Positions 3,586-62,156 of a DNA stretch of 64,000 nt are shown here, in pieces. The stretch is from assembly GCA_964030475.1 (NCBI GenBank), contig CAXIPT010000001.1, positions 13,436,800 to 13,500,799 on the forward strand, given 5' to 3'. The DNA comes from Tethya wilhelma. Taxonomy: Eukaryota; Porifera; Demospongiae; Tethyida; Tethyidae. A model generated the notes under the pieces. That model was not told the origin of the DNA. It worked only from the letters and a program-made list of their open reading frames with translations, and did no database searches. Position numbers and translations under genes: made by a program. How positions within the stretch are numbered: position 1 is the first letter of the stretch; every line of letters starts with the position of its first letter.

Positions 3586-3976
3586 GAGTGTCTGTATACT
3601 AGGATGAATAGTGTGATTGTCTATTCTCTGATTTTCATGTGCAATTGTTGCTTTATACATGAAGAAACTGCGGCTTCTGATACAATACACCACCATCAAT
3701 AGTGGTAGCACTATATACTAACACACGTCTTACAAGCTGCTCATAGGAAGTAAATGCAAGGGTTTGAACAACCATAGATACTACACATGTCTACAGAACA
3801 ACTTCCAACATTGTTTAGAACATCTCTGATCTCTCGAAACACACACACACACTCATCGACCTCGCTGAGGTCTCTTTGTTGACAGCGAATAGAGCAATAT
3901 TCCGGATAGGCAACCACTTTTTACCTTCAATTTTGCACATATGATGTCCACATCTTCTCCTGAACGTGATGATGGC
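690..3976 (-). CDS. RAPGEF4: Epac-type Rap guanine-nucleotide exchange factor, 5' part (partial)
   Basis: This is the N-terminal part of a cAMP-activated GEF for Rap GTPases; the gene runs off the left edge. Exons join in phase: 3925-3976 (contains SGEDVDIICAKLK, like the EDVDIIFTRLK stretch before Epac2 CNB-A), 3392-3482 (FENYPEEILLELSRY), 1564-1655 (FKPGEDGLYWYAVISGSLD), 1402-1469 (LGGGDSFGENVIFGTSR) and from 951 down to about 690 (TTIVTKDYCELL). Together they form one cyclic-nucleotide-binding domain. The phosphate-binding cassette keeps the ribose-contacting Glu (FGE) and the phosphate-contacting Arg (TSR), so cAMP binding is expected. DEP, REM and CDC25-HD modules are not in the window. 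The initiator Met is unresolved; an open frame continues upstream to an ATG at 4080. The order fits Epac2 (CNB-A first) better than Epac1. RAPGEF4 is a family-level name. The 52-bp exon is repeated at 5949-6000 and the 68-bp exon at 293-360. Confidence 0.8.
1081..1499. repeat. Tandem duplicate of an Epac exon and its introns, copy 2
   Basis: Partner of 1-389. It ends exactly where a (GA)n microsatellite (about 1500-1551) begins. It contains CNB exon 1402-1469, which is in the correct order between exons 1564-1655 and the exon ending at 951. Confidence 0.85.
1500..1551. repeat. (GA)n microsatellite
   Basis: About 26 GA units lie in an Epac intron. A similar array occurs at about 2157-2211. 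Confidence 0.95.
3513..3582. repeat. (GA)n microsatellite at the left edge of the 2-kb duplication
   Basis: A pure GA array of about 35 units runs directly into the first copy of the 2,024-bp duplicated block. A second GA array (7683-7757) lies just beyond the other end of the block. Confidence 0.95.
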
Positions 3977-5600
3977 CTGTAACAGTGCATGTGGTGTGGT
4001 GTGCATTGAACAATGTACATGACATGTACAAGTATAGAGGTCTCTCTCTGTGTGTGTGACCATGCTGCATTTGTTTGCAACTCAATGACACCACACGTTC
4101 TCCAGTATTGTCTTCAAATCATGTGAAGTATGTGTCACACACAGTTACCATAGTTAGGTACACTAGCTAGAAGCACCGTTCATCAGCTGCATGCCCACCA
4201 CAAAGACAACACATACTACTCCCCCGCTAAAAGTAGACAGACAGAACGCTCATTTCTTCTTACTTTTTAGTGAGACACGAGACCCAGTGCCACCCTGTAA
4301 CACCATTCATCTCGAGCGCTGGATTTCTCTCTTTGTACTCTGGCACTGCACACGTTTCTTTACAAGAAGTTCTACCTCCAGTGCTACGTGTTGACTTGCT
4401 ATTAGTACTATATCACAAACTATCGTTGGCCTAAAGCACTGAATTATTATTCAATTACATTTACTGTAGAAGTCTATACTGGACTCACACACTTCTGGTG
4501 CTGAGACTTTACGGCAACACATGTAAAGTGGCAATTAAACAAATTACATCAGTGTAACCACACCTACACTGCATCTGCAGGTATTTAATTATTGGAGGTC
4601 AAACCGCAAAAGAATGCAATTTTTTTGGATTTCATAATTTGAAAAAGAATAAATAATAATGAAAAACACACCCTAAAATGAAAAACCTTGAAACAAACAA
4701 CAACAACAACACATTTGTTAATGAATCACTCAAGAGAGTCCAGCTCTGGAAACAATTCTAACAAAATAATGTCCAAGAGCTTGAAGAAAAGCAGCTTGTT
4801 CAATTCCTTGCACTGAAGACCTTCGAAAATCATGGTAGTTCCATCTCGATATCTTTGCTCACCAACTATTCCAACAAACAAAGGATTGGGGTAGGTGATT
4901 AGCCTTTCCAGAGTCTCATCCATACGCTGCTTAATCTGTTCTTCAGTCCTAGAAACAACAGGATTAGATGAAATGAAGCATTGCAGATCAAGCTAGAGAA
5001 GTTATTACATAGTCTGACTATATAGATATTACATGAAAATTAGTAATAAATTACATACCTAGGTGGGTCATTATTGAAGAAAAGATTATCTACAAAAGGT
5101 GAAGAGGTAATTGACACACACTATTTAATATAATTATTAACTTGGATGATGAAGGGGTTACCTCTAAACAGTTCAATGAGTTGAGTAACCTTAGCTTCTT
5201 GCTGTGACAGCTCTACCTTGCGACGTGCAAAACTATGAGGTAAATTAGACCAATAATCTCAAGATGAATGCCACAGAGTATAATAACTGTAAGTCATACT
5301 TGTAAGCAATTGTCTCCACGGTCTCTTCTCCTAGTAACTTGACCAGCTGCAGTCCTGTTAATTGCCAGGGGCGTACTCGATACACGTGAATTGCCACATA
5401 TATCAGCAGATCCATGATGCTGTTTATTTGAAGTTCATCTGTACAATTGCCCACACATAATGTAAAATACCAGTAATATTGTGTTCAACTGTCAGTCTGA
5501 TACGCATAAATCAATGTAGCGTGCTAGAAACCTACATCCTACTGCTCTATTTGCATATGGACAGTTAAATACGAATAATTCAGTGCAGTGGAGTCATGTT
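3577..5600. repeat. 2,024-bp tandem duplication, copy 1
   Basis: 3577-5600 repeats as 5601-7624 with a constant offset of 2,024 bp and almost no differences; one visible change is aagtaaatg near 3750 versus aagtaaacg near 5774. The unit carries an Epac exon (3925-3976), the Epac/SNX14 intergenic region and the last SNX14 coding exons (4726-5454). The near identity means either a very recent duplication or an assembly artefact. Confidence 0.95.
4726..5454 (-). pseudogene. Duplicate of the SNX14 3' exons (Nexin_C region)
   Basis: This repeats the last SNX14 exons found at 6750-7478: an exon with MDLLIYVAIHVYRVRPW, small exons near 5160-5230 and 5070-5090, and the final exon with LNKLLFFKLLDIILLELFPE and a stop at 4726. 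No upstream SNX14 exons precede it except the other copy, so alone it cannot encode SNX14. It is a pseudo-copy if the duplication is real, or a duplicated contig end if it is artefact. Confidence 0.75.
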
Positions 5601-7624
5601 GAGAGAAGTGAGTGTCTGTATACTAGGATGAATAGTGTGATTGTCTATTCTCTGATTTTCATGTGCAATTGTTGCTTTATACATGAAGAAACTGCGGCTT
5701 CTGATACAATACACCACCATCAATAGTGGTAGCACTATATACTAACACACGTCTTACAAGCTGCTCATAGGAAGTAAACGCAAGGGTTTGAACAACCATA
5801 GATACTACACATGTCTACAGAACAACTTCCAACATTGTTTAGAACATCTCTGATCTCTCGAAACACACACACACACTCATCGACCTCGCTGAGGTCTCTT
5901 TGTTGACAGCGAATAGAGCAATATTCCGGATAGGCAACCACTTTTTACCTTCAATTTTGCACATATGATGTCCACATCTTCTCCTGAACGTGATGATGGC
6001 CTGTAACAGTGCATGTGGTGTGGTGTGCATTGAACAATGTACATGACATGTACAAGTATAGAGGTCTCTCTCTGTGTGTGTGACCATGCTGCATTTGTTT
6101 GCAACTCAATGACACCACACGTTCTCCAGTATTGTCTTCAAATCATGTGAAGTATGTGTCACACACAGTTACCATAGTTAGGTACACTAGCTAGAAGCAC
6201 CGTTCATCAGCTGCATGCCCACCACAAAGACAACACATACTACTCCCCCGCTAAAAGTAGACAGACAGAACGCTCATTTCTTCTTACTTTTTAGTGAGAC
6301 ACGAGACCCAGTGCCACCCTGTAACACCATTCATCTCGAGCGCTGGATTTCTCTCTTTGTACTCTGGCACTGCACACGTTTCTTTACAAGAAGTTCTACC
6401 TCCAGTGCTACGTGTTGACTTGCTATTAGTACTATATCACAAACTATCGTTGGCCTAAAGCACTGAATTATTATTCAATTACATTTACTGTAGAAGTCTA
6501 TACTGGACTCACACACTTCTGGTGCTGAGACTTTACGGCAACACATGTAAAGTGGCAATTAAACAAATTACATCAGTGTAACCACACCTACACTGCATCT
6601 GCAGGTATTTAATTATTGGAGGTCAAACCGCAAAAGAATGCAATTTTTTTGGATTTCATAATTTGAAAAAGAATAAATAATAATGAAAAACACACCCTAA
6701 AATGAAAAACCTTGAAACAAACAACAACAACAACACATTTGTTAATGAATCACTCAAGAGAGTCCAGCTCTGGAAACAATTCTAACAAAATAATGTCCAA
6801 GAGCTTGAAGAAAAGCAGCTTGTTCAATTCCTTGCACTGAAGACCTTCGAAAATCATGGTAGTTCCATCTCGATATCTTTGCTCACCAACTATTCCAACA
6901 AACAAAGGATTGGGGTAGGTGATTAGCCTTTCCAGAGTCTCATCCATACGCTGCTTAATCTGTTCTTCAGTCCTAGAAACAACAGGATTAGATGAAATGA
7001 AGCATTGCAGATCAAGCTAGAGAAGTTATTACATAGTCTGACTATATAGATATTACATGAAAATTAGTAATAAATTACATACCTAGGTGGGTCATTATTG
7101 AAGAAAAGATTATCTACAAAAGGTGAAGAGGTAATTGACACACACTATTTAATATAATTATTAACTTGGATGATGAAGGGGTTACCTCTAAACAGTTCAA
7201 TGAGTTGAGTAACCTTAGCTTCTTGCTGTGACAGCTCTACCTTGCGACGTGCAAAACTATGAGGTAAATTAGACCAATAATCTCAAGATGAATGCCACAG
7301 AGTATAATAACTGTAAGTCATACTTGTAAGCAATTGTCTCCACGGTCTCTTCTCCTAGTAACTTGACCAGCTGCAGTCCTGTTAATTGCCAGGGGCGTAC
7401 TCGATACACGTGAATTGCCACATATATCAGCAGATCCATGATGCTGTTTATTTGAAGTTCATCTGTACAATTGCCCACACATAATGTAAAATACCAGTAA
7501 TATTGTGTTCAACTGTCAGTCTGATACGCATAAATCAATGTAGCGTGCTAGAAACCTACATCCTACTGCTCTATTTGCATATGGACAGTTAAATACGAAT
7601 AATTCAGTGCAGTGGAGTCATGTT
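5601..7624. repeat. 2,024-bp tandem duplication, copy 2
   Basis: Partner of 3577-5600. This copy is directly continuous with the rest of SNX14. Its Epac exon copy (5949-6000) is stranded between the two SNX14 3' ends. Confidence 0.95.
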
Positions 7625-27889: not shown

Positions 27890-28675
27890 TCATTTCTTGC
27901 TAACACACTGGTTTCCCTTGATGTAAAACCGCAGTGGTTTCGTGGACCACTCCTCCCCTGCGTACTCCACACCTATCCTGCCACTCTCAACAATCTCCAC
28001 CTCACTTTGCCCCTCTGAGTGATCATGAGACTCCACCCATAAATGGTCACATGACACTAAATCTAGTCTATCACATGTTTTGTCAATGTCCATTGCTTGG
28101 CAAAGTTTAGCAGGACCACTGCAGAGGTCTTTGTCCTTCTTGGCCGCCTTCCTTCTGCTCCTCATGCTCTCCACTCCCTCCAGAGGCTCTAGTGCTCTCA
28201 CGAGAACAGCTGCACCTTCTCCTTGACTTGAAATGTTGAAACAACAGTACATACCATATATAGAATACACATAAGATGTTCCTGGCTCCATGTACATGGA
28301 AGTATTGCGTTCTGTTTTCTTCCCATTGTAAGAGTGAGCTGCTTTGTCTTCTCCTCCGAGATAGGCCTCAGTTTCAATGATCATTCCTCTACATTCTGTA
28401 CCGTCTGCACACACCCTAACTATAACACATCCAAGGAGAGATTTGGCAAGTTCAATACAGGGCTGATTGTAGAAAGTTCTGTCACATTTTTGGGACAATG
28501 CAGATTCACCCGATTCCTGAATAATTTTTGAAGCATAAGAATTGTGGTATGGTTATGAACCACCGATTTAGTACTGCAACAAGGTTACCTCTAACTTTTT
28601 CCTTTTCTTTTGGCCTCCAGGAGTTTGCCCGTCATAGAATTTATCACTCTTCCTCTTCAACTTTCTTGCAGCCAT
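27890..28675 (-). CDS. MPG: 3-methyladenine (alkylpurine) DNA glycosylase, complete copy
   Basis: Monofunctional base-excision repair glycosylase that removes alkylated and deaminated purines. Two exons: 28589-28675 (29 codons, Lys-rich nuclear-targeting start MAARKLKRKSD) and 27890-28516 (begins ESGESALSQKCDRTFYNQP). Active-site residues of the AAG fold are present: catalytic Glu and neighbouring Tyr in IIETEAYLGG, His in KAAHSY, intercalating Tyr in YSIYGMYCCFNISSQGEG, the Asn in FNIS, and Arg in VLVRALEPLEG. It lies head-to-head with ATG12, with 92 bp between start codons. A second, truncated copy lies at 29999-30686. Confidence 0.95.
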
Positions 28676-28767
28676 CAACGACCACGCCCATCCAATGTTT
28701 GTTTGATGCGCTTTATTTAGAATAAAGTACTCTCTGGACATAGTTTGGGTGGATTTCCCTTTCTTTT
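28676..28767. promoter_or_regulatory. Candidate bidirectional promoter, MPG/ATG12
   Basis: Only 92 bp lie between the MPG ATG (28675, minus) and the first ATG12 ATG (28768, plus). The arrangement recurs in the second copy at 30687-30779. Confidence 0.55.
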
Positions 28768-29358
28768 ATGGCCATGGCCACGCAAGAAGAAGAACCGTCA
28801 GCAGTATCAGAAAAAAGTAAGAATGTTTCCAATACTAGCTGATTGTTCTAATGGAAGGTTTCTCTTATTTTACAGTTACAGTTAGTTTGAAACCTGCTGG
28901 CAATGCTCCTATGCTCAGTAAGAAGAAGTTCCTTGTGGAGAGAAATAGAAGAGTGGGCTGGATACACCAGTGGCTGAGAAAACACTTAAAATGTGAACCT
29001 GATGAATCAGTTGTAAGTTCCCAGTCGTGTAGCTTTGTTCCCCTTTGCCAGACTTCACCAACACCTGGAAGTGAGGTCATACATGTGAACGTACATGTGT
29101 ACATGTGTATGACTGCATGTTCACTGTTTTCTTTCATCTTTCTGACAGTTTGTTTACGTTGCTCAGTCGTTTGCCCCTCCTCCAGATGAGACTTTAGACT
29201 CGCTCTATGAGGTAATGTGTGTGTGTGCAGGCTTTGTCATGCTGTAATGTAAAATCTCCATTGATTTTATCCTCCTTTTGATGTGTTTCCTTGTGCAGTG
29301 TTACAATATAGGAGATAAACTGATTTTACATTATTGCAAAACACCAGTTTGGGGATAA
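28768..29358 (+). CDS. ATG12: Ubiquitin-like autophagy protein ATG12, copy 1
   Basis: ATG12 is conjugated to ATG5 through its C-terminal Gly to build the E3-like complex that lipidates ATG8/LC3. Four exons join in phase: 28768-28816, 28876-29012, 29149-29211 and 29299-29358. Motifs: VSLKPAGNAPMLSKKKF, the RRVGWIHQWLRKHLK helix, FVYVAQSFAPPPDETLDSLYE and LILHYCKTPVWG followed directly by the stop, so the conjugation Gly is terminal and needs no processing. The second ATG (28774) is also possible. Confidence 0.95.
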
Positions 29359-29574
29359 TGACAGCATTACATACAGGTCACACTTTATACACTGCACATC
29401 TTTTTTAGAAAGTATATTTTGTGTTGTGTCGTAGCAAGTACAATAATTACAGCATAATACAATAATTTATGTAATACTTGTGTTTTTGTGTGTGTAATAA
29501 GAACATGTGTCTGAGGAGTCAATGATGTATAATACTGTGTGGTTATTTTGAAAATGAGCTAAAATTAGTTGCTG

Positions 29575-29823
29575 CTAGTTTGGGTTGGAAGCAGACGACG
29601 CAACTCTCTCCTCTTCTTCCTCTTTTTGTTCCTCCATCGATGGTGCTACTTCACTCTCCATCTCGTCATCGTCATCATCATAGGGGTACCTCCACCTGAG
29701 AATGGCCCCGTCCTCACTCACACTGATGATGTGTCGGCCGTCGGGAGAGATCTTCACTCCATTCACGTCACCACTGTGGCCTTCTCCGATGTGAGTCACA
29801 TCACCTTCATTGTAACGCCACAC
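29575..29823 (-). pseudogene. Duplicate of the last CFAP52 exon
   Basis: This repeats the terminal exon of CFAP52 (31586-31834; identical protein: YNEGDVTHIGEGHSGDVNG, acidic tail). No other CFAP52 exon precedes it on the minus strand before the duplication junction apart from a fragment ending at the N, so it is not a functional gene alone. Confidence 0.8.
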
Positions 29824-29998
29824 CTACATACACACAGGTACGTATGTAAATTGACACTGCCATGTGTTTACCTAGCACTAACAAGAGTATGTACATGACT
29901 TGACAATGTGTGTTTACCTATAGGACTTGCACATCATACAAGGGTAGCTACCACTATGATCTAAGTGTCTAGGGTATTCTTGCCTCGACACTCTGCCN

Positions 29999-30686
29999 CA
30001 ACAATCTCCACCTCACTTTGCCCCTCTGAGTGATCATGAGACTCCACCCATAAATGGTCACATGACACTAAATCTAGTCTATCACATGTTTTGTCAATGT
30101 CCATTGCTTGGCAAAGTTTAGCAGGACCACTGCAGAGGTCTTTGTCCTTCTTGGCCGCCTTCCTTCTGCTCCTCATGCTCTCCACTCCCTCCAGAGGCTC
30201 TAGTGCTCTCACGAGAACAGCTGCACCTTCTCCTTGACTTGAAATGTTGAAACAACAGTACATACCATATATAGAATACACATAAGATGTTCCCGGCTCC
30301 ATGTACATGGAAGTATTGCGTTCTGTTTTCTTCCCGTTGTAAGAGTGAGCTGCTTTGTCTTCTCCTCCGAGATAGGCCTCAGTTTCAATGATCATTCCTC
30401 TACATTCTGTACCGTCTGCACACACTCTAACTATAACACATCCAAGGAGAGATTTGGCAAGTTCAATACAGGGCTGATTGTAGAAAGCTCTGTCACATTT
30501 TTGGAGCAATGCAGATTCACCCGATTCCTGAATAATTTTTGAAGCATAAGAATTGTGGTATGGTTATGAACCATCGATTTAGTAGCGCAACAAGGTTACC
30601 TCTATCTTTTTCCTTTTCTTTTGGCCTCCAGGAGTTTGCCCGTCATAGAATTCATCACTCTTCCTCTTCAACTTTCTTGCAGCCAT
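29999..30686 (-). pseudogene. MPG second copy, C-terminus missing at N junction
   Basis: Exon 1 (30600-30686) and most of exon 2 (up to 30527) match the complete MPG with few substitutions. The reading frame is lost at the N (29998), which joins it to CFAP52-derived sequence, so roughly the last 33 codons are absent. It is a haplotype or assembly copy, or a truncated duplicate if the join is real. Confidence 0.85.
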
Positions 30687-30779
30687 CGACGACCACGCCC
30701 ATCCAATGTTTGTTTGATGCGCTTTATTTAGAATAAAGTACTCTCTGGACATAAGTTTGGGTGGATTTCCCTTTCTTTT

Positions 30780-31371
30780 ATGGCCATGGCCACGCAAGAA
30801 GAAGAAGCGTCAGCAGTATCAGAAAAAAGTAAGAATCTTTCCAATACTACAAGCTGATTGTTCTAATGGAAGGTTTCTCTTATTTTACAGTTACAGTTAG
30901 TTTGAAACCTGCTGGCAATGCTCCTATGCTCAGCAAGAAGAAGTTCCTTGTGGAGAGAAGTAGAAGAGTGGGCTGGATACACCAGTGGCTGAGAAAACAC
31001 TTAAAATGTGAACCTGATGAATCAGTTGTAAGTTCCCAGTCGTGTAGCTTTGTTCCCCTTTGCCAGACTTCACCAACACCTGGAAGTGAGGTCATACATG
31101 TGAACGTACATGTGTACATGTGTATGACTGCATGTTCACTGTTTTCTTTCATCTTTCTGACAGTTTGTTTACGTTGCTCAGTCGTTTGCCCCTCCTCCAG
31201 ATGAGACTTTAGACTCGCTCTACGAGGTAATGTGTGTGTGCAGGCTTTGTCATGCTGTAATGTAAAATCTCCATTGATTTTATCCTCCTTTTGATGTGTT
31301 TCCTTGTGCAGTGTTACAATGTAGGAGATAAACTGATTTTACATTATTGCAAAACACCAGTTTGGGGATAA
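30780..31371 (+). CDS. ATG12: ATG12, copy 2
   Basis: Second complete ATG12 with the same four-exon structure: 30780-30828, 30891-31027, 31164-31226 and 31312-31371. It differs from copy 1 by a few residues (for example VERSRR instead of VERNRR, CYNVGDK instead of CYNIGDK) and keeps the terminal VWG. Substitutions are conservative or in introns, as expected of alleles. Confidence 0.92.
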
Positions 31372-31585
31372 TGACAGCACTACATACAGGTCACACTTTA
31401 TACACTGCACATCTTTTTTAGAAAGTATATTTTGTGTTGTGTCGTAGCAAGTACAATAATTACAGCATAATACAATAATTTATGTAATACTTGTGTTTGT
31501 GTGTGTAATAAGAACATGTGTCTGAGGAGTCAATGATGTATAATACTGTGTGGTTATTTTGAAAATGAGCTAAAATTAGTTGCTG

Positions 31586-34500
31586 TTAGTTTGGGTTGGA
31601 AGCAGACGACGCAACTCTCTCCTCTTCTTCCTCTTTTTGTTCCTCCATCGACGGTGCCACTTCGCTCTCCATCTCGTCATCGTCATCATCATAGGGGTAC
31701 CTCCACCTGAGAATGGCCCCGTCCTCACTCACACTGATGATGTGTCGGCCGTCGGGAGAGATCTTCACTCCATTCACGTCACCACTGTGGCCTTCTCCGA
31801 TGTGAGTCACATCACCTTCATTGTAACGCCACACCTACATACACACAGGTACGTATGTAAACATGTGTTTACCTAGCACTAACAAGAGTATGTACATGAC
31901 TTGACAATGTGTGTTTACCTATAGGGCTTGCACATCATACAAGGGTAGCTACCACTATGATCTAAGTGTCTAGGGTATTCTTGCCTTGACACTCTGCCCA
32001 CCTTGATTAGCTTGTCTCCTCCCCCTGTAACAAAGTGCTTGCCAAAGATGTCCATGCCATTGATGGAAGCACTCTTGCTGCCATCCAGCTCCCTGATCTG
32101 GGAGCCATCGTAAGGTTCCCAGTAGCCAATCTTTCTGTCTGTCCCTCCGGTAATGATCTGGCACTCATCAGGCCGATAGCAAACAGCACGAAACATAGTG
32201 TTGGCAAAGATCACTTGGCTCCTCACAAATCGTCTGAAATGCAATACACAAGTTGTGTTAACACAAAATACATGATTGATGTTAAACACAATCTAGTTAT
32301 GTCTAGCTGCACGCGGCCAGTAGTCTAGACACAATGCTAATGAAGATCTTCCCCTCTTAGGAAGTGTGTAACGTGATGAAGGAGGGTTTAGCTCGATGAC
32401 TACATTCTGTCATGTACTTACACAAGATCCCAGATGATACAGGTTCCATCTGTGCTTGCAGTAACACACTGTAAGGAAACAAAATTTTTTGAGTATAAGA
32501 AATGAGTAAAGTAAATGAATGAGCATAATTGTTTGTAGAAGACAACAAACACGGATGTAGCCAAACATTTTCACAAGATCCTCCCCTCCCACTGGAATTT
32601 AGACTGTTCTAGAGAGTCTGTTACAAATTGCTACCTCTTCATCATTCTTCCTGATCTTGATACAAGTGACGGCTCCCTTGTGCTCTTTGAGGGCTTCCTT
32701 CATGTACTGTCCTTGAGCCCTCACCTCCCACACTCGAACCTGACCCTCACCTCCTCCACTGATCACCCGTTTGCTGTCAGAGGTACAGGCTAGTGCAGTG
32801 ACACCCTTGAAGAAGAAGAAGAAACGTACAACATTGCAACTATGATGAAATGTACTGAACTATTGTACATCATTTCCTATAATGAAGTGGCAACATGCAT
32901 AGTTTAAATTATGCACCAGGATTTGGGAAGCCAAAAAACTGGGTTACCAAATGTATGAAAATTATTAATGTACCTTGTTGTGTGCATCATGAATGGTGTA
33001 CATGGGTTTGCCAGACTCTGGGTAGAATGCACGGATCTTTCCATCATCCCAACCTGAGTGATAAGACCAGAGCAGTAATCACTTACTGGGTCAATAGAAA
33101 TATTATCAGACATACCACTTATAATGGCCTTTCCATCTGGAGTTATGTCCACTGAATGGCAGAGTAGATTGGGTATTGTTAGTCGGAGCAGCTCCTTGCC
33201 TGTCTCTGTGTGCCACACTCTTACATCCTGGTTACTGCTTGTTGCAAACAGCTCGGACGAATCCCTAAAATAGAGTCGTATATGACTCATATTATGCATC
33301 AACAATGCACACATATATTGGTTTGGTTCCTCATATAAGATACAACATTGTACCTCTGTGTATAGACTGAAGTCTATTGCTACAGCTATAGGCTCAGGCT
33401 GAGACCAGTATAAAGGACTCACCTTGGGAAGACAATATCAGTGACGGCACTGTTGTGACATGAGCTGATGAGAGTGGAGTTAAAATTGGCAAACTCCACT
33501 CTAAACATCTGTGCCTGTTTCGTTCCAACAAAGAACTGGTTCCCACTCCCACGAAGTGAGATGGAGGTAATTGCACCGTGGAATTTAGTCTCACGGTGAG
33601 GTATTTTCTTGAAGTTGGGTGCTCCTGCCACCTCACAGATCACCCCATCCCCAGTGCCAAGAAGGATGTGGCCTGAAGGAAGGAGACACAGCTTGGATAT
33701 TCCCTGACTGAACTTGTTCTTCTGAGGACCAAAGTGACGGACGAGGTGAGTGTTTATGTTCACCTGAAGAGCACAAAAAGAAAGATAGCTGGATTAATAG
33801 TTGCTGTGACGTAACCCTCACACCCAGGTCTTCCACAACAAGTGGACTCCCTGTTGTAGCCTCATAAACATTCCTTCCCTCACATGTATTATTAAATTTT
33901 GTAACTAGCTTGTGGCCAACTGAAGCTCTATAATTATATACCTGTATATATGAAGCTCTATACCTGTATGATGTCGCCACTGGTGGTGCCACAGTACATG
34001 TACTGATCATCATCCGAGACTTGGATGCAGTTGACGTTACGCTTGAGTTGTCCCAAGTTACAGTCAGTTGGAATGATCTTACGGGTTTGTGGATTCAATT
34101 CCCACACTCGCAGAGTCAGGCTGGATGTGTGCAAACAGTCAACTTAAAAATCATTATATTTGTGTGTGTGTGTGAGTGTGTGTGTGTGTGTGTTTGATCA
34201 ACTTACTTTCCACCTGTGACAAACATGTCATCACGACAGGAACAGAATGCAAGAGCATTCACGGTACCAGCACTCATTGTTGCAGCTTGGCTCCCACACA
34301 CAGCCTCCTTCTTAGCAATATCCCAGATAACAACACTGTAGAGGTAGAGCAAACCCTTGATGCAACTGGTGAACAATCAGGGACATTAATACATACCTGT
34401 TGTCATCTTGGCCTCCAAGAGTAGCCAGATACTTGTCGTTTGGTGAAAAGGCAATGGCCTGAACCTTGACCTTGTGGAGAGAGAGTCTGCAATAAAGAGC

Positions 34501-53621: not shown

Positions 53622-54671
53622 TTATGTGGTGAAATGCAACTCAAAGATGGTGTGGTTTCTTGGGTCATATCCCAGTGATGCAAAAGGCACCTTCACTGTG
53701 TCCACAACAGTTTTATCTGGTTGAGTCAAGTTAACTCTAACAAGAGTGTCTGGCAACTCATAATTGAAAGGATCATCATCGTGTGAATGCATTATCATGT
53801 ACAACATCTGTGACTGGGGGTCGTATGTGTAGGGCACAGCACCAGGAGCAGAGGACAATAGGTCCGGGGGTATTTTGGCCATAAGAGTTTCTCTGCCATC
53901 TGAAGTTACATTGACAACAATTAATGAGTTATAGTCTTCAGTGTTGGTAGGATTGTGCACCACAATGACATACTCCTTCGCTTTTCCAGTCACTACAGCA
54001 GCAAACAGGTTGGAGTCCATATCTTCACCATCCTGGACGGTCCATATGGAGTTCCATGTGTTTGTGCCATTTCCTACTAAGCTTACGTTTTGAACCACAA
54101 TTTGATCTCCCACATTATACCAATATTCTCCCGTAGCATAAGTGTCGTGGTTCATATGAATGTTACTGCAGTAGCCAAAGCCGTTTGTATCAGCAGCGCT
54201 AGCGGGAGCGACAGCGTCATCATAGTAGAGCACTCCCTCACCAGTGTCATTGAAGGGGACATAACACCAGGTGTAGTTCCAGTTGATTGCTACATTACCT
54301 GGTTTCAGACATATTCCATACAGTACATTGAATTCTGGGTTGTAGTCCCAGGAAACAAACTCTGTAGATATGTCACTAATGATCTTGTAGTTGGCAACAG
54401 CTTGCCCATCACTCATGTTGTATTTCACGAAGCTAGAAGTACCAAAGGCCACGTAGAATAGGTTTCTTTTCTGATCGACCTGAGCACAGAGGGCATTTAC
54501 AGTTGGTAGAGAATAGCCAAGCTTTGTGAGTCTACCAGTGACCGGGTCTATGGACAAGACATCTTGTGGACCTTTGAACGGATAATTGTATGGCGAAATA
54601 AAAGTGAGCAGCCGTGGTTTGGCGTATGTTGGAACTGCAGCCAACATAATCAACAACACGAACCAGTACAT
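53622..54671 (-). CDS. Secreted protein, intronless, unrecognised (possible beta-propeller)
   Basis: One open frame of 349 aa from the ATG at 54671; an in-frame ATG at 54746 would add 25 residues. The inner Met opens onto a strong signal peptide (YWFVLLIMLAAVPTYA). The mature protein has many N-glycosylation sequons (NMSD, NYTW, NDTG, NVSL, NGTN, NVTS, NLTQ, NHTI) and strand-rich segments such as DVLSIDPVTGRL, NLFYVAFGT and LYMIMHS, spaced like blades of a secreted beta-propeller. No membrane segment or GPI signal is seen at the C-terminus (FELHFTT). It lies between the two separated pieces of TSC2, antisense to them. No family is assigned. Confidence 0.75.
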   Translation of the reverse strand: MYWFVLLIMLAAVPTYAKPRLLTFISPYNYPFKGPQDVLSIDPVTGRLTKLGYSLPTVNALCAQVDQKRNLFYVAFGTSSFVKYNMSDGQAVANYKIISDISTEFVSWDYNPEFNVLYGICLKPGNVAINWNYTWCYVPFNDTGEGVLYYDDAVAPASAADTNGFGYCSNIHMNHDTYATGEYWYNVGDQIVVQNVSLVGNGTNTWNSIWTVQDGEDMDSNLFAAVVTGKAKEYVIVVHNPTNTEDYNSLIVVNVTSDGRETLMAKIPPDLLSSAPGAVPYTYDPQSQMLYMIMHSHDDDPFNYELPDTLVRVNLTQPDKTVVDTVKVPFASLGYDPRNHTIFELHFTT

Positions 54672-55281
54672 GACGGTGAGTCTCCTGATAAGCACGGGAC
54701 GAGGCTCTGGGAGGCTAAAGCAACGACAACCAGAGTGGACGTACAACCAGAAGCTGCAACCGATTCCAAATAACGCACACTTGACTATATGGAAAGGGTC
54801 GTCAATTAATTTGAGTTCCCAATTAGTATATAGCTCATAAATAATGCATGAAGCAAAATTTATAGGGAAGTAATTTGGAAGTTGGGCACTAAACTTACTA
54901 TATTTTTCTACAAGCCAAGAAAAACTCCAGTGCTTAAAAAAATAATAATTATTATGCCAAGCACTCAGTTTTTGCAGATTATTTGAATCAATGAATTATA
55001 TTATTTTGTATTGTGCATATGGGTCATTCGATGTTAGTTTTTATCTATAACAATCACTCTAACCTAAACCTGCCAGAAGTCTCACTATTATTATTTATAT
55101 TTCTACATGTAGCTAGGCTAGAAAAACACAAAATCTCCAGTATCAAGGTTTAACAAAAAATTAATAAGGAAAACAAAAAAAAGCATGAACATATTAGCAG
55201 GGGGATTCCTGGAAGTAAATTAAGTCTTAAATGTGTACAGTACTGACCAATTCAATTCAATGTTTAAACTAAGTCGTAATG
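54672..55281. other. AT-rich spacer
   Basis: About 600 bp upstream of the secreted-protein gene, expected to include its promoter. No other feature recognised. Confidence 0.5.
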
Positions 55282-56494: not shown

Positions 56495-56630
56495 CTTGAC
56501 ATTCACTTCCACACTAGTTTTAAAAATCAATCGGTCTTTGCATATGTGAATCTATTAAATGCTGAAAAATTAAAATGTGATGACTTACTTAAAAGAATAC
56601 ATGACAATTTGAATATTTATTAATACAAAT

Positions 56631-59600
56631 TCAACAGCTACAGCAACTGTAATTATTCGTTACACTAGAGCTGGTGCTAGGTATCGGGGTGTTGTGATGG
56701 TTTCCTTGGGGTATGGTTTGGGGTGGTTCTTTGTGTAATGAAATAGTATCAGTTTTCTTGTGTGGTGCTCTATTGGATGTGACCAGAAGCTTGGTGATCT
56801 CAGAGAAAACCTGTATGCAGCAATGTGTTCATTGTGTATATAATGGAGCAGTGACTTTAACATACCACATCAATGTTAATGGGGTCACTGTCACAACAAC
56901 TGGTTTCATAGTAGCCTGCCATGCCATGGCTCCTAGCCTCTTCCTGGGCTTCTTCTGTTGTAACTGTACCTGGAGTTTTTCCGTCTCTAAGATCGGTCTT
57001 GTTCCCAACTAAAATGTATATATTGTGCATGGTGAGTTGAGTGTAAGCTTAAAAGGCTCAAAAATCAATGCCTATGCCTTGAATTGGGCAATGACAGTAA
57101 TGAGGAGACGGGGGAAATCACAACAATAAAAAAATACGTAGTAATTGCAAACCCTTACCGAGTACCATCACTGGATGCTGGTGGTAGTTGTTACTTGAAA
57201 AAAACTTCACTTGTTTGATCCACGACCTCTGGCGGTGATAGTCACTCTGGTGCAGATCACAATTACAGTCATCTCTAACAGCATGACTAAAAGTGTTTTT
57301 CCGGCTGACATCGAATACAATGATGGCTGCATCCACATCACGAAAGATCCTGTAGCCAGATAAAGTTGAAATCTTGGTAGCATATGCATACACCATAATT
57401 ATGCAGGAAGAATTTCAAGTATTCTTACAATTTTTCCATGGAATTCACTTTCCTTTCCATCCCCACAGTGTCCCATATGATGAGCTTCACATAAGTATCG
57501 TTATATTTCATGAACCGAAAGTCTTCAGCCATGCCATGTGCAATTGTTGGTGCAACTGTATTACATTAATAATCTATCATTATAGTAGTTTATTAGACTT
57601 ACAATAAGGCCTTCATAAGGCTATGTTGAAACAATCAACCATACTATTATGTGTAACCATATCTAGGGTGTAACACCATGGTAATTCTTTACCTACTTAT
57701 GCTGGTCCTTCTGTGTGCATACGTACACTGTTGTATAAACAATAGTAGCATGAGGCTTAATTTGGAAGGCCTGTGAACGAAGCTAAGCAAGTAAGACTAA
57801 TTATGTAATTCTTATACTCACCATCTAATAATCTAAAACCACCAGGATTAACAAATCGCATCATGATGGACGTTTTACCGCAACCTGCATTTTTAAAAAT
57901 AAAATTAATGCACATTCAAGTCAGTTAGCATTGAATCCCTGTTGCTATGGAGATGCACGGATTACAATTGCATGTACATGTTAATAGACTACTTGTTGAC
58001 ATTTTACAATAAGCTTAATTAGAAAAATTAACATAGGACCTGGAGCATACCACAATGCAACTATTATTATGCATGAGCATACACAACATTATGTTGACAT
58101 TTTTGACATTAACTGATTAAATTATCAAACTTCACAAAGTGTTCTTTTTGTGCCCAAAAGTGTTTTAGAGCAAAATAAACCTTTTTCACACAAGTGTTTT
58201 TTTTTCTTCCAATGTTATTAAATTGAATGTTAACACAGTTGCCTAGTATACTACATGGACAATGCATAATGCCTACATGGAGGTATCTTTATGATGCTGC
58301 AGTACAGTACAGTATACACAGATGCATATCATTATTACTCACTAGAGTCTCCAATAATGATCACTTTGTAATCCTTGTGTTGTCTAATGGATTTCTCTTC
58401 GCTACGAGGAATCTTTTTCACGACACCCTAAGAAAGTATTGGTTTGATTTTCAAGAGACACGCAACTGTGACAGTTCACTAAGGATATCAGTGTAATCAT
58501 TATATTCATCCCTTGTCCCAATAATTATCAAAACAGCACTGCATGCATAGAAAGGAGATCAGGTACGTAGCCAGGATTCTTGAAAGCAGTATATATAGCC
58601 CAGGGATGGGGGGATAGTGGGGTTTTGTCTACTCAATACTGTAGTATGATAAAGCAGCAAATTTAGGGGTCTCTAAGCATCACCGACAAAGCATACTCTC
58701 CCAAAATTCGAAGATTGGTGGTATTTAAAATTATAAATCAGATGATGTAACATAGTTCTGGCAAATTTCAAAATTGGGAGGGGAAGTTTAAGGGTTTGGA
58801 GATAAGATTGATCACTTACATTGTTTAATGTAGAATGGCCCATTATTAGTGGACTAACTCCAGACACTGTGACGTCATTGTGTGTTGTTTCTACAGAGAA
58901 CACTGACACAGGACCTGCTGCTTCTGATGTTATGGAGGCTACAAGATTTGAATTATATACAGAAATTGAATTTAAGTCTACAAATTACTACTGGTCAACT
59001 TACAATCACCATGGCTACTGCTGGATGAAAGACGAGTACAGATGCATGAATGTTGGGATAGAATGGTGCTGGCCACTTGTCTCTCATGAACAGTATCGTG
59101 TTGGAGGGCACTGGCTAGACTATGCCACGATGCTTCAGAGTCATTATTCAACCAGTTTGTAATCATCTCTTGTAGCGCTCTGTCTTTATCTCCGTAATAT
59201 CTTGACTCAATATTGTCGAGAATGGAGAGGGACACATTCAGCTGAATTCCAATGTTTCTCCATTTAGTCCGTACATGATAAACTGAATTAAATATATCTT
59301 TAAAGTTTTCTAAGGTCAGTAGTCCTGTAAATAGAGTGCACGTGTCTTAAGTTAATGCCAGGTTGTGAATCTACAGATAGTGTACAAATTTAAACAATTT
59401 GACATTATTTTTACAAATTTTGTACATAATATAAAATAGCTCCATGCACACAGTCCAGTCCAGAGAGAGTAAGCAAATTGTGAGATCACTGTCTTTAGTG
59501 TCATGCAGACATACACTTGCATGGTAAGCCTAGGTCCTACCATAGAGATTTAGTGTATTCATCATAGCATTGGCATTTAAATTATATTAATAATCATACA

Positions 59601-59707
59601 AAATTTTTGTGTGCCTGTGTGTTTGAGTGTTAATGTATTTGTATCACGTGTAGCTTACGTCTACAAGGGCATGATGTGACGATAGAACCTATTCTGCGCA
59701 TTTCCAT
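56631..59707 (-). CDS. Death domain-Rab-like GTPase fusion protein
   Basis: Nine coding exons join in consistent phase to 425 codons plus stop: 59659-59707, 59004-59324, 58820-58938, 58343-58427, 57832-57894, 57429-57555, 57159-57349, 56866-57008 and 56631-56810. Residues about 18-105 form a death domain (WRNIGIQLNVSLSILDNIE, ALQEMITNWL, SWHSLASAL). A Ser/Thr-rich linker follows. The GTPase spans about 180-385: P-loop GDSSCGKT (189-196), switch I Thr in PTIAHG (216), G3 WDTVGMER (240-247), G4 VGNKTD (319-324) and G5 ETS (353-355). The C-terminus ends CCSC, a Rab-type geranylgeranylation signal. Departures from canonical Rabs: Met for switch II Gln, a roughly 20-residue Cys/His-bearing insertion before the W-I-K-Q-V helix, and SCC instead of SAK. 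The start exon is the least certain part. Convergent with TSC2. Confidence 0.8.
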
Positions 59708-60011
59708 AGCTTTGAATGTTGAGAACACCTCCAAATGAGTGTTTGTAAACTGAATCTTGATAAATTGCTACTAGGGTCAAAGGTCAGTTTCTTTGTCCTA
59801 GCCTAGACTAGTGATGTAATGTGTTGTGGTTATGTCGGTCTATAATTTCCCCTAATGCATGGAGTATACATCTGTTGACCTAGCAACACTTAGAACGTTA
59901 CAGCTATATACTGGATATTAAACTTTATCCTGTATACTTGTACCCACTATAAACACACACATATATTTAAAAAAACATACACGCAAAGCTTGAAGCATAG
60001 AATGCATGCTT
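59708..60011. other. Intergenic spacer upstream of the death domain-Rab gene
   Basis: About 300 bp between the death domain-Rab start and the stop of the next minus-strand gene. It must hold the former's promoter and the latter's 3' UTR. Confidence 0.5.
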
Positions 60012-62156
60012 CTAGTTAGTTTGAGTGTTAAAATAAAAGTTCAATGCTCTTTCAACGTTCATGTCTGCCTGCAAGAGGAAGTCCTTGAGGAGTTCGTCCG
60101 ATCCCTCTGCTCCCACGATCTCCCTCAGCTCCTCCATGGCTGCCTGGAAGGCCAGGGTGTTGGGATGGTGGAACTCCTCGTCCAGCTTGTAGCTCTCATC
60201 ACCATGTTCATGATAGTGACCAGAAGTGGAGCTACTGGAGGATGAGCTACTCTGACTGTCTGTCATGGTGGGCTGAAGAGACATGACAGAAATAAAGATA
60301 CAGGTTAACAAATGGCTAGTCCATAGTGATAAATGTAGTGCTACTGTTGATAGTAGTGGTTACATGTACATTGTGTCATAATTTGCCCACATAAATGGAA
60401 TTACTAGATGACCAACCCGTCATTTACTCAGGTATTAAAGTAAGTGGTGGTAGCCTAGTGGGGCTTATGTACAAAGATGGACAGCAGTGATTGGCACGTC
60501 TATAATTGGACCATCTTACCCTGTCTTCGTTGGCCAGAGGTGGTCTCTGTGAGTGTCGTAGGAGGAGGCGGGGGTCGGTGGTGGCAGAGAGAAGGGAGCG
60601 GAGCTCCTGCTTCAGCTCGTCAGGAAGACTGCTGTAGCCATCGACCTCTGTCATTACAATATCAGGGTTGTTCAAGATGTGCTCTAGGGTAGCTTCCTGA
60701 GGGAGGGAGGGAGGGAGGGAGGGAGAGAGGGAGAGAGGGAGGTTCAAGAAATGTGTGACAATAATAACAATGAAAACAAAAGAGACTACATTCTACTGCA
60801 GTCTCTTGAATACCAAGAGTATACATGTATGTATTCTTGATTCAAGGATCCGGCTCAAACTGTGACAACAGTGAATGTATCGTAACTATCTAACCACTAG
60901 CTTCTCACCCTGAGTTTCCTGGCGCTATAGCGATCAGCGACCTGCAGTAGGGGGAAGGCGTTGCTGTCCTCCACCCTCTCCACCAGCACACCCTCACACA
61001 TCACACGCAGCGATGTTGTCTCATATTGGTCGGCAACGGCCAACAACTCTATGATGTCATCGAGACTCATTGCAGCAGTGTCCAGTCGTCCCCCGTAGAG
61101 GTAGTGGAGGAAGGTACGGAAGACACCCTCATCAATGTCGTGGATCACGATACGTCTGAGGGGAAGGGGAGAGGGGAGGAGGAGGGGGAGGGAGAGAGAG
61201 AGTGTTAGTACTTGTGGCAGATAAAAATTCAGCAGAGGTACATGTAAATCTTTACTGTCTTAGCTATCGATTTTCAAAGTGGGAATTATACAGATCTATA
61301 TAGGTGATAATGTTTTTAGTATTTAATAATATGTATGATGCTTGTTTAGAGAATATGTACATCCTTGTTGCCATGGTAACTTGATACATGCACACAATCA
61401 CATACCATTCTCACTAATGCAAGTAGCAAAAGAAACGAACATGATTGTTGCTTTTTTTTGCCGCTTGCATCAGTAGTGTAGACAAAAAAACATTTATTTT
61501 GCTAGCCAAAATAGCAAGTGAATTTTTACGAGTGAAAGTTTCCTAATCTACAGTATAACAGTGTACCAAACTGGTGCAAGAGGGAAAATTTTAGAAGAGC
61601 ACAAGCTGCATTGAAGCTTCCTCCCTCCCTCCCCTCCCCTCACCTGTCAATGGCCTCCTTCATCCCCGACTGGAGTGCCCTCTTGAACCACTCACTGCGA
61701 GATGCCACCACCACACGATGAGCCTCAATGGTGACCGGCTCATTGGAAGTGGGTGTGGCAACCTCATCAGTGGTGGGTGTGGTCTCAGGTAGGATACTCT
61801 CCTTCAGTATAAACTGCATGTCACTGTATTCACACGTTTCTAGCAACTTGAGGCAACCCTTGGCCAGCTGACTTTCAGACACATTCAAGGATTCCAAGCC
61901 AGGCTGAAAGATACAAGATAAACAGAATCAAGGGTATAACATATACACCATAATGTGGAAATATTGGCAGTACATTCAATTTGGCAATTTGGTGATCAGT
62001 TCAGAAATCTATTTATATTGAAGAAAAAAGACCAAATACTTTTGTGGGTAAGTAGCTTGAAGACTAAAATCAATACTCATCATTAATTTATTTCTGTTAT
62101 TAGGGTAAGAAGAAGAAACTTCCTTTACCCACTCAGCTCAAATACAACTGCCATGN

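Follow-up and report, generated by a model that had tools for sequence, protein, structure and literature searches.

Within a 64,000-nucleotide stretch of the genome of the sponge Tethya wilhelma (contig CAXIPT010000001.1, positions 13,436,800 to 13,500,799; hereafter the window), we describe a putative gene that joins a death domain to a Rab-like GTPase. Matching exon phases, a 65-nucleotide intron and a first GTPase exon without a start of its own make this union in one gene the best reading of the sequence, and we consider it quite likely that death domain, linker and GTPase indeed form a single gene. We also favour, as the likely explanation, a more specific composition and origin: a death domain followed by a flexible linker and then by a divergent, CXC-tailed Rab-like GTPase, brought together by exon shuffling.

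In window coordinates, the gene is built as follows.

56631-59707, minus strand: whole Death-Rab gene, nine exons
59659-59707, minus strand: exon 1, 49 nucleotides, with the ATG (start context GCTATGG), exits in phase 1
59004-59324, minus strand: exon 2, death domain, enters and exits in phase 1
58939-59003, minus strand: intron between Death and linker exons, 65 nucleotides, GTAAGT...TTGTAG
58820-58938, minus strand: exon 3, linker, enters in phase 1 and exits in phase 0
58343-58427, minus strand: exon 4, first GTPase exon, start of G1 (GDS), without ATG
57822-57884, minus strand: exon 5, remainder of G1 (SCGKTS)
57429-57555, minus strand: exon 6, G2 and G3 (APTIAHG, DTVGMER)
57159-57349, minus strand: exon 7, central part of the GTPase; about 17 residues are inserted relative to P0001, a protein discussed below
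56866-57008, minus strand: exon 8, G4 (NKTD) and an altered G5 (ETSCC)
56631-56810, minus strand: exon 9, C-terminal tail NYSCCSC, then the stop

Eight of these nine exons (exons 2-9) are fixed by the sequence, with GT-AG borders and phases that agree throughout, and the gene product comprises 425 residues (426 codons including the stop). A first-pass annotation of this DNA had already placed the Death, linker and first GTPase exons, together with five further GTPase exons up to the stop at 56631, at these positions; its matching junction phases and 425-residue length were reproduced as well. The least certain portion of the model is exon 1 with the 5' end. The chosen exon (59707-59659, donor GAC/GTAAGC) scores best among the listed combinations of an ATG and a donor of the right phase, and the ATG at 59701, spliced from that donor as well, ties with the start at 59707. 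An in-frame stop is found 5' of exon 1, at 59770. Past the GTPase stop, AATAAA occurs at 56621; otherwise, between 60100 and 55500, the gene strand carries solely ATTAAA at 58829 (in the linker exon) and AATAAA at 57594 (in the intron after exon 5), and neither motif is present within the 65-nucleotide intron between Death and linker exons. Upstream on the same strand lies a BTB gene (60012-61900), whose stop is about 305 nucleotides ahead of the Death-Rab start and whose UBA-like end scores 18.9 bits, below the cut-off of 21.8.

Both domains were recovered when Pfam was run on the 425-residue product, a check proposed in the first-pass annotation: Death scores 25.3 bits (cut-off 22.6) and Ras 92.2 bits (cut-off 21.6), with Roc at 55.9 bits. 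Taken alone, the open frame of the death domain exon reaches 28.5 bits for Death, and the predicted fold of the domain resembles solved death domains. The exon also retains W21, G25, L35, L58 and W66, five positions at which a 23-row alignment with paralogues shows no variation. No TRADD-N was detected in the product by Pfam, the one test applied for it.

By its motifs, the GTPase is Rab-like rather than a canonical Rab. G1 (GDSSCGKTS) and G4 (NKTD) are intact; in G3 (DTVGMER) a Met replaces the switch II Gln, and G5, usually of the form SAK, reads ETSCC, so that the five motifs are not all preserved. With the Gln absent from DTVGMER and G5 altered, it should not be taken for granted that the switch cycles normally under nucleotide control. 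The protein terminates in SCCSC, which as a sequence motif corresponds to a double-Cys prenylation signal of the CXC type, and not of the CC type that had initially been assigned. Structure matches and phylogeny both put the domain closer to Rabs than to Ras or Rho: 59 of the best 60 solved chains (of 662 matched) are named Rab, RAB or Ypt, the remaining one being GH01619p, and a 28-row tree sets it among Rabs, apart from three rows of the same genome that our own analysis labelled Ras/Rho-like (87/71, not starred). Its branch in this tree is long, with 2.71 changes per column, and lies within no starred group.

The best solved-structure match is Rab9A, at 74 bits and including a TDT-LH tail similarity. 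Such a match could mean that we are dealing with an ordinary Rab9-type Rab, to which the Death exon is attached merely by misreading. We find this extremely improbable: the tree sets the window GTPase outside the Rab7+Rab9 group (86/98, not starred), unplaced among other Rabs, and two separate Rab9-like genes exist elsewhere in the genome. A Rab9 origin, hinted at by the best PDB match, is likewise not borne out by the tree, where the relevant branches are not starred. The two Rab9-like genes, so labelled from the tree, stand near several Death exons (C8:4169000-4190500; L023 and L024); in the second, the DTAGQ motif is gone (WDFLSQKK).

Whether Death and GTPase belong to one gene turns on the linker exon. 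The first-pass annotation held that the GTPase needs the upstream exons, and this proved half right. Since the first GTPase exon lacks an ATG and is directly preceded, at 58430, by an in-frame TAG that belongs to the splice acceptor, an upstream exon is required; the linker exon supplies the shift from phase 1 to phase 0 that the Death-GTPase join demands. The Death exon, however, may be dispensable: translation could begin within the linker exon, at an in-frame ATG (58843) lying 27 residues ahead of the GTPase core, so that the GTPase depends on the linker exon but not necessarily on the Death exon.

That start codon is the first of several points that weigh against a single gene. A Rab-only product of 270 residues could be made from it, and the single transcript spanning Death and GTPase is one that we infer from the genomic sequence. 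As a chance control, we used dinucleotide shuffles and overlapping window tiles of the same length (coding ones included), with a simple consensus splice score. An in-frame splice path with equal or better sites appeared in 57 of 1000 shuffles, and phase agreement alone is therefore weak evidence. Requiring a cassette exon of at least 119 nucleotides reduced this to 0 of 1000; among the tiles, an in-frame path was present in 24 of 296, and one with such a cassette in 2 of 296. The real stretch permits six such paths, all sharing the donor end of the linker, which leaves room for minor splice variants. In codon usage, the linker ranks close to the median of stop-free segments across the window, 3079 of 6832 scoring at least as high, and one open frame on its opposite strand has a higher score (0.26 versus 0.13 bits per codon); on the other side, the linker outscores each of the 78 overlapping stop-free segments of non-coding DNA nearby. 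The measure itself is weak, two of the six GTPase exons falling below zero.

The ATG in the linker would suit an arrangement with two genes (or two promoters), in which a small gene encodes Death only and a separate Rab-like gene starts at 58843 (MGHSTLNN...). Unfused Death and Rab neighbours do occur in the genome, for instance at C1:2.407 Mb, where a GTPase gene that we take to be Rab21-like begins about 300 nucleotides past a Death exon. The Death exon of the window gene, however, has a consensus donor (GTAAGT) with the linker acceptor just 65 nucleotides further, and the two exons agree in phase, which would be needless for a separate first exon. In the presumed Rab21-like control, the Death exon ends in a stop and the GTPase exon has an ATG of its own. 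We judge the two-gene arrangement unlikely. In all four GTPase frames found near a same-strand Death match (L022, L024, L025 and L026), a Met precedes the P-loop without interruption of the open frame; Death is upstream of the GTPase in L022 and L024 alone, where each Death frame runs into a stop, and downstream in L025 and L026. These frames came from a search for a second Death-Rab gene, in which Death matches (one set from 150 scored of 591 candidates) and the top of the list of Ras matches were compared by eye for neighbours on one strand, among the best-scoring matches only. The L022 locus (C1:2405000-2410000) consists of a 748-residue open frame with a P-loop, then the Death exon, then the separate GTPase gene.

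The searches for relatives also speak against the Death-Rab gene. They covered about 5.8 billion protein sequences with a method that needs shared 5-residue words, so that a diverged orthologue could escape, and for the whole product and the Death half they used a 415-residue version with a 19-nucleotide exon 1. The whole query gave six matches, none with Pfam Death; the Death half had no match at E <= 10 among 410 candidates; a profile that included P0001 returned none with Pfam Death in the best 120 of 167 matches (7991 candidates scored). The same architecture, which the first-pass annotation had suggested seeking in other proteomes, was hence not met: there is no Death+Ras protein among the matches listed. 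Nor was a second copy seen among 101 listed matches in the sponge's own genome (124.6 Mb), whose expanded Death repertoire, compact introns and sponge-type kinase frame are in keeping with a sponge. Judged by these searches, the gene is most likely lineage-restricted. The claim of a single Death-Rab gene therefore stands as the best sequence reading, qualified by the possible start in the linker exon and by the lack of an orthologue among the matches listed.

The lack of a second copy or orthologue among the matches listed, the long GTPase branch and the altered G3 and G5 could instead betray a decayed or non-functional chimera, in which a Death exon was recently joined to a degenerating Rab copy that is at most weakly transcribed. 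Decay of this sort is very unlikely in our view, given 425 codons open across nine exons, intact splice sites, intact G1 and G4, and a death domain that keeps all five residues invariant among its paralogues.

The closest GTPase found in the searches is P0001, a protein of 312 residues that is 35% identical across 47% of the query. Like the window protein, it has a divergent Rab-like GTPase preceded by further sequence, with a G3-type motif (DTSGEAR) that also lacks the Gln, and a Cys-containing end. The two differ in their tails, CaaX-like CTLT versus CXC, and in their N-termini, a death domain in the window protein and a resemblance to the tail of a kinase C-lobe in P0001. Over 49 residues, the N-terminal stretch of P0001 is 41% identical to the end of a kinase-like frame in the T. 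wilhelma genome (E 7e-4 in the genome search, 7e-8 against the 8.5-kb locus alone); Pfam finds no kinase in P0001, and its best match to a solved kinase is not significant (E 0.28). Judging by these matches, P0001 may be the end of a kinase-Rab fusion, and so a second possible fusion of a signalling module with a Rab. We claim no homology of the window gene to P0001 in the linker, whose score is reached by 68 of 2000 shuffles, or in the tail, where 629 of 2000 do so.

The first-pass annotation knew of no described Death-Rab fusion, and the titles and abstract openings listed in searches of open-licence papers agree: none describes one. Its parallels are domain-fused large Rabs and the shuffling of Death domains in sponges. 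A death domain and a Ras-like GTPase share one chain in ROCO proteins and DAP kinase (Roc-COR with Death) too. The window protein departs from these in scoring higher for Ras than for Roc, in having Death first and in its CSC tail, and Pfam finds no COR domain in it.

Large Rabs (Rab44, Rab45/RASEF, Rab46/CRACR2A-L) bear a calcium-sensing EF-hand domain, and overexpression of Rab45 leads to apoptosis in leukaemia cells (PMC8303950). Klopper et al. likewise report three Rabs with an additional domain, naming Rab44 and Rab45 (PMC3425129). The layout of large Rabs, an extra N-terminal module followed by a C-terminal Rab with a prenylation tail, is that of the window protein; they carry EF-hands and coiled coils, whereas the latter has a death domain and lacks the switch II Gln. 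No EF-hand was matched by Pfam in the window product, at E 0.001 for 425 residues or E 1 for 415. In the main text of PMC8303950 and PMC3425129, the term 'death domain' has no occurrence.

Sponges offer the other parallel. In Amphimedon, 357 TRADD-N proteins of the NCOA6 clade are reported, most architectures having one to three Death-like domains and then variable C-termini (PMC8195603). These shuffled proteins with Death and TRADD-N, the Dysidea NLRD (PMC12909245) and the window protein all have N-terminal Death-like domains and lineage-specific C-terminal modules, which differ between them. In Amphimedon the modules are ankyrins, SH3-LRR, kinases, MATH, SH2, PDZ, caspase, PNPase and HD; a Rab- or Ras-type GTPase is named neither among these (PMC8195603) nor for Dysidea NLRD (PMC12909245) in the available portions of the two papers.

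We propose that a phase-1 Death exon from the large Death repertoire of the genome was shuffled onto a duplicated, diverging Rab. In the resulting protein, the tail would be geranylgeranylated, as its CSC end suggests, and would tether it to an endomembrane. The GTPase, with G1 and G4 intact, would bind guanosine triphosphate (GTP). From what is generally known of small GTPases, the missing switch II Gln suggests slow hydrolysis of GTP, probably resulting in a long stay on the membrane in the GTP form. The death domain would face the cytosol and recruit death-fold partners, perhaps of FADD, MyD88 or NLR type. We advance this membrane-tethered, slow-cycling recruiter tentatively, as a possibility with predicted anchoring and predicted partners; a role at endosomes or phagosomes would be plausible.

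If expressed as read, one polypeptide would join Rab-marked compartments to death-fold platforms, separate systems that meet on membranes in vertebrates. As few Rabs have any extra domain (three by the count of PMC3425129), a Death on a Rab would amount to a natural experiment in where death-fold platforms get built. The case also illustrates the possible reach of Death-exon shuffling in a Death-rich genome. A broader idea, which we regard as rather doubtful, is that divergent Gln-less Rab-like domains serve as a reusable C-terminal membrane-anchoring switch in sponges or in this lineage, with a death domain here and a kinase in P0001. If true, death-fold and kinase signalling would here share a class of membrane-tethered platforms gated by GTP, one that is not known from other animals.

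Elsewhere in the window, an Rfam scan of all 64 kb gave 0 matches at gathering scores, and a minus-strand open frame of 457 residues (53625-54995) has no Pfam match at E 0.01. Two tandem duplications were noted: one at 27893-31900, with a step of about 2 kb, holds two very similar methylpurine-DNA glycosylase frames, the first copy of which is matched by Pfam; the other consists of minus-strand frames of equal length at 3818-4992 and 5842-7016, 2024 bases apart and identical over their first 60 residues.
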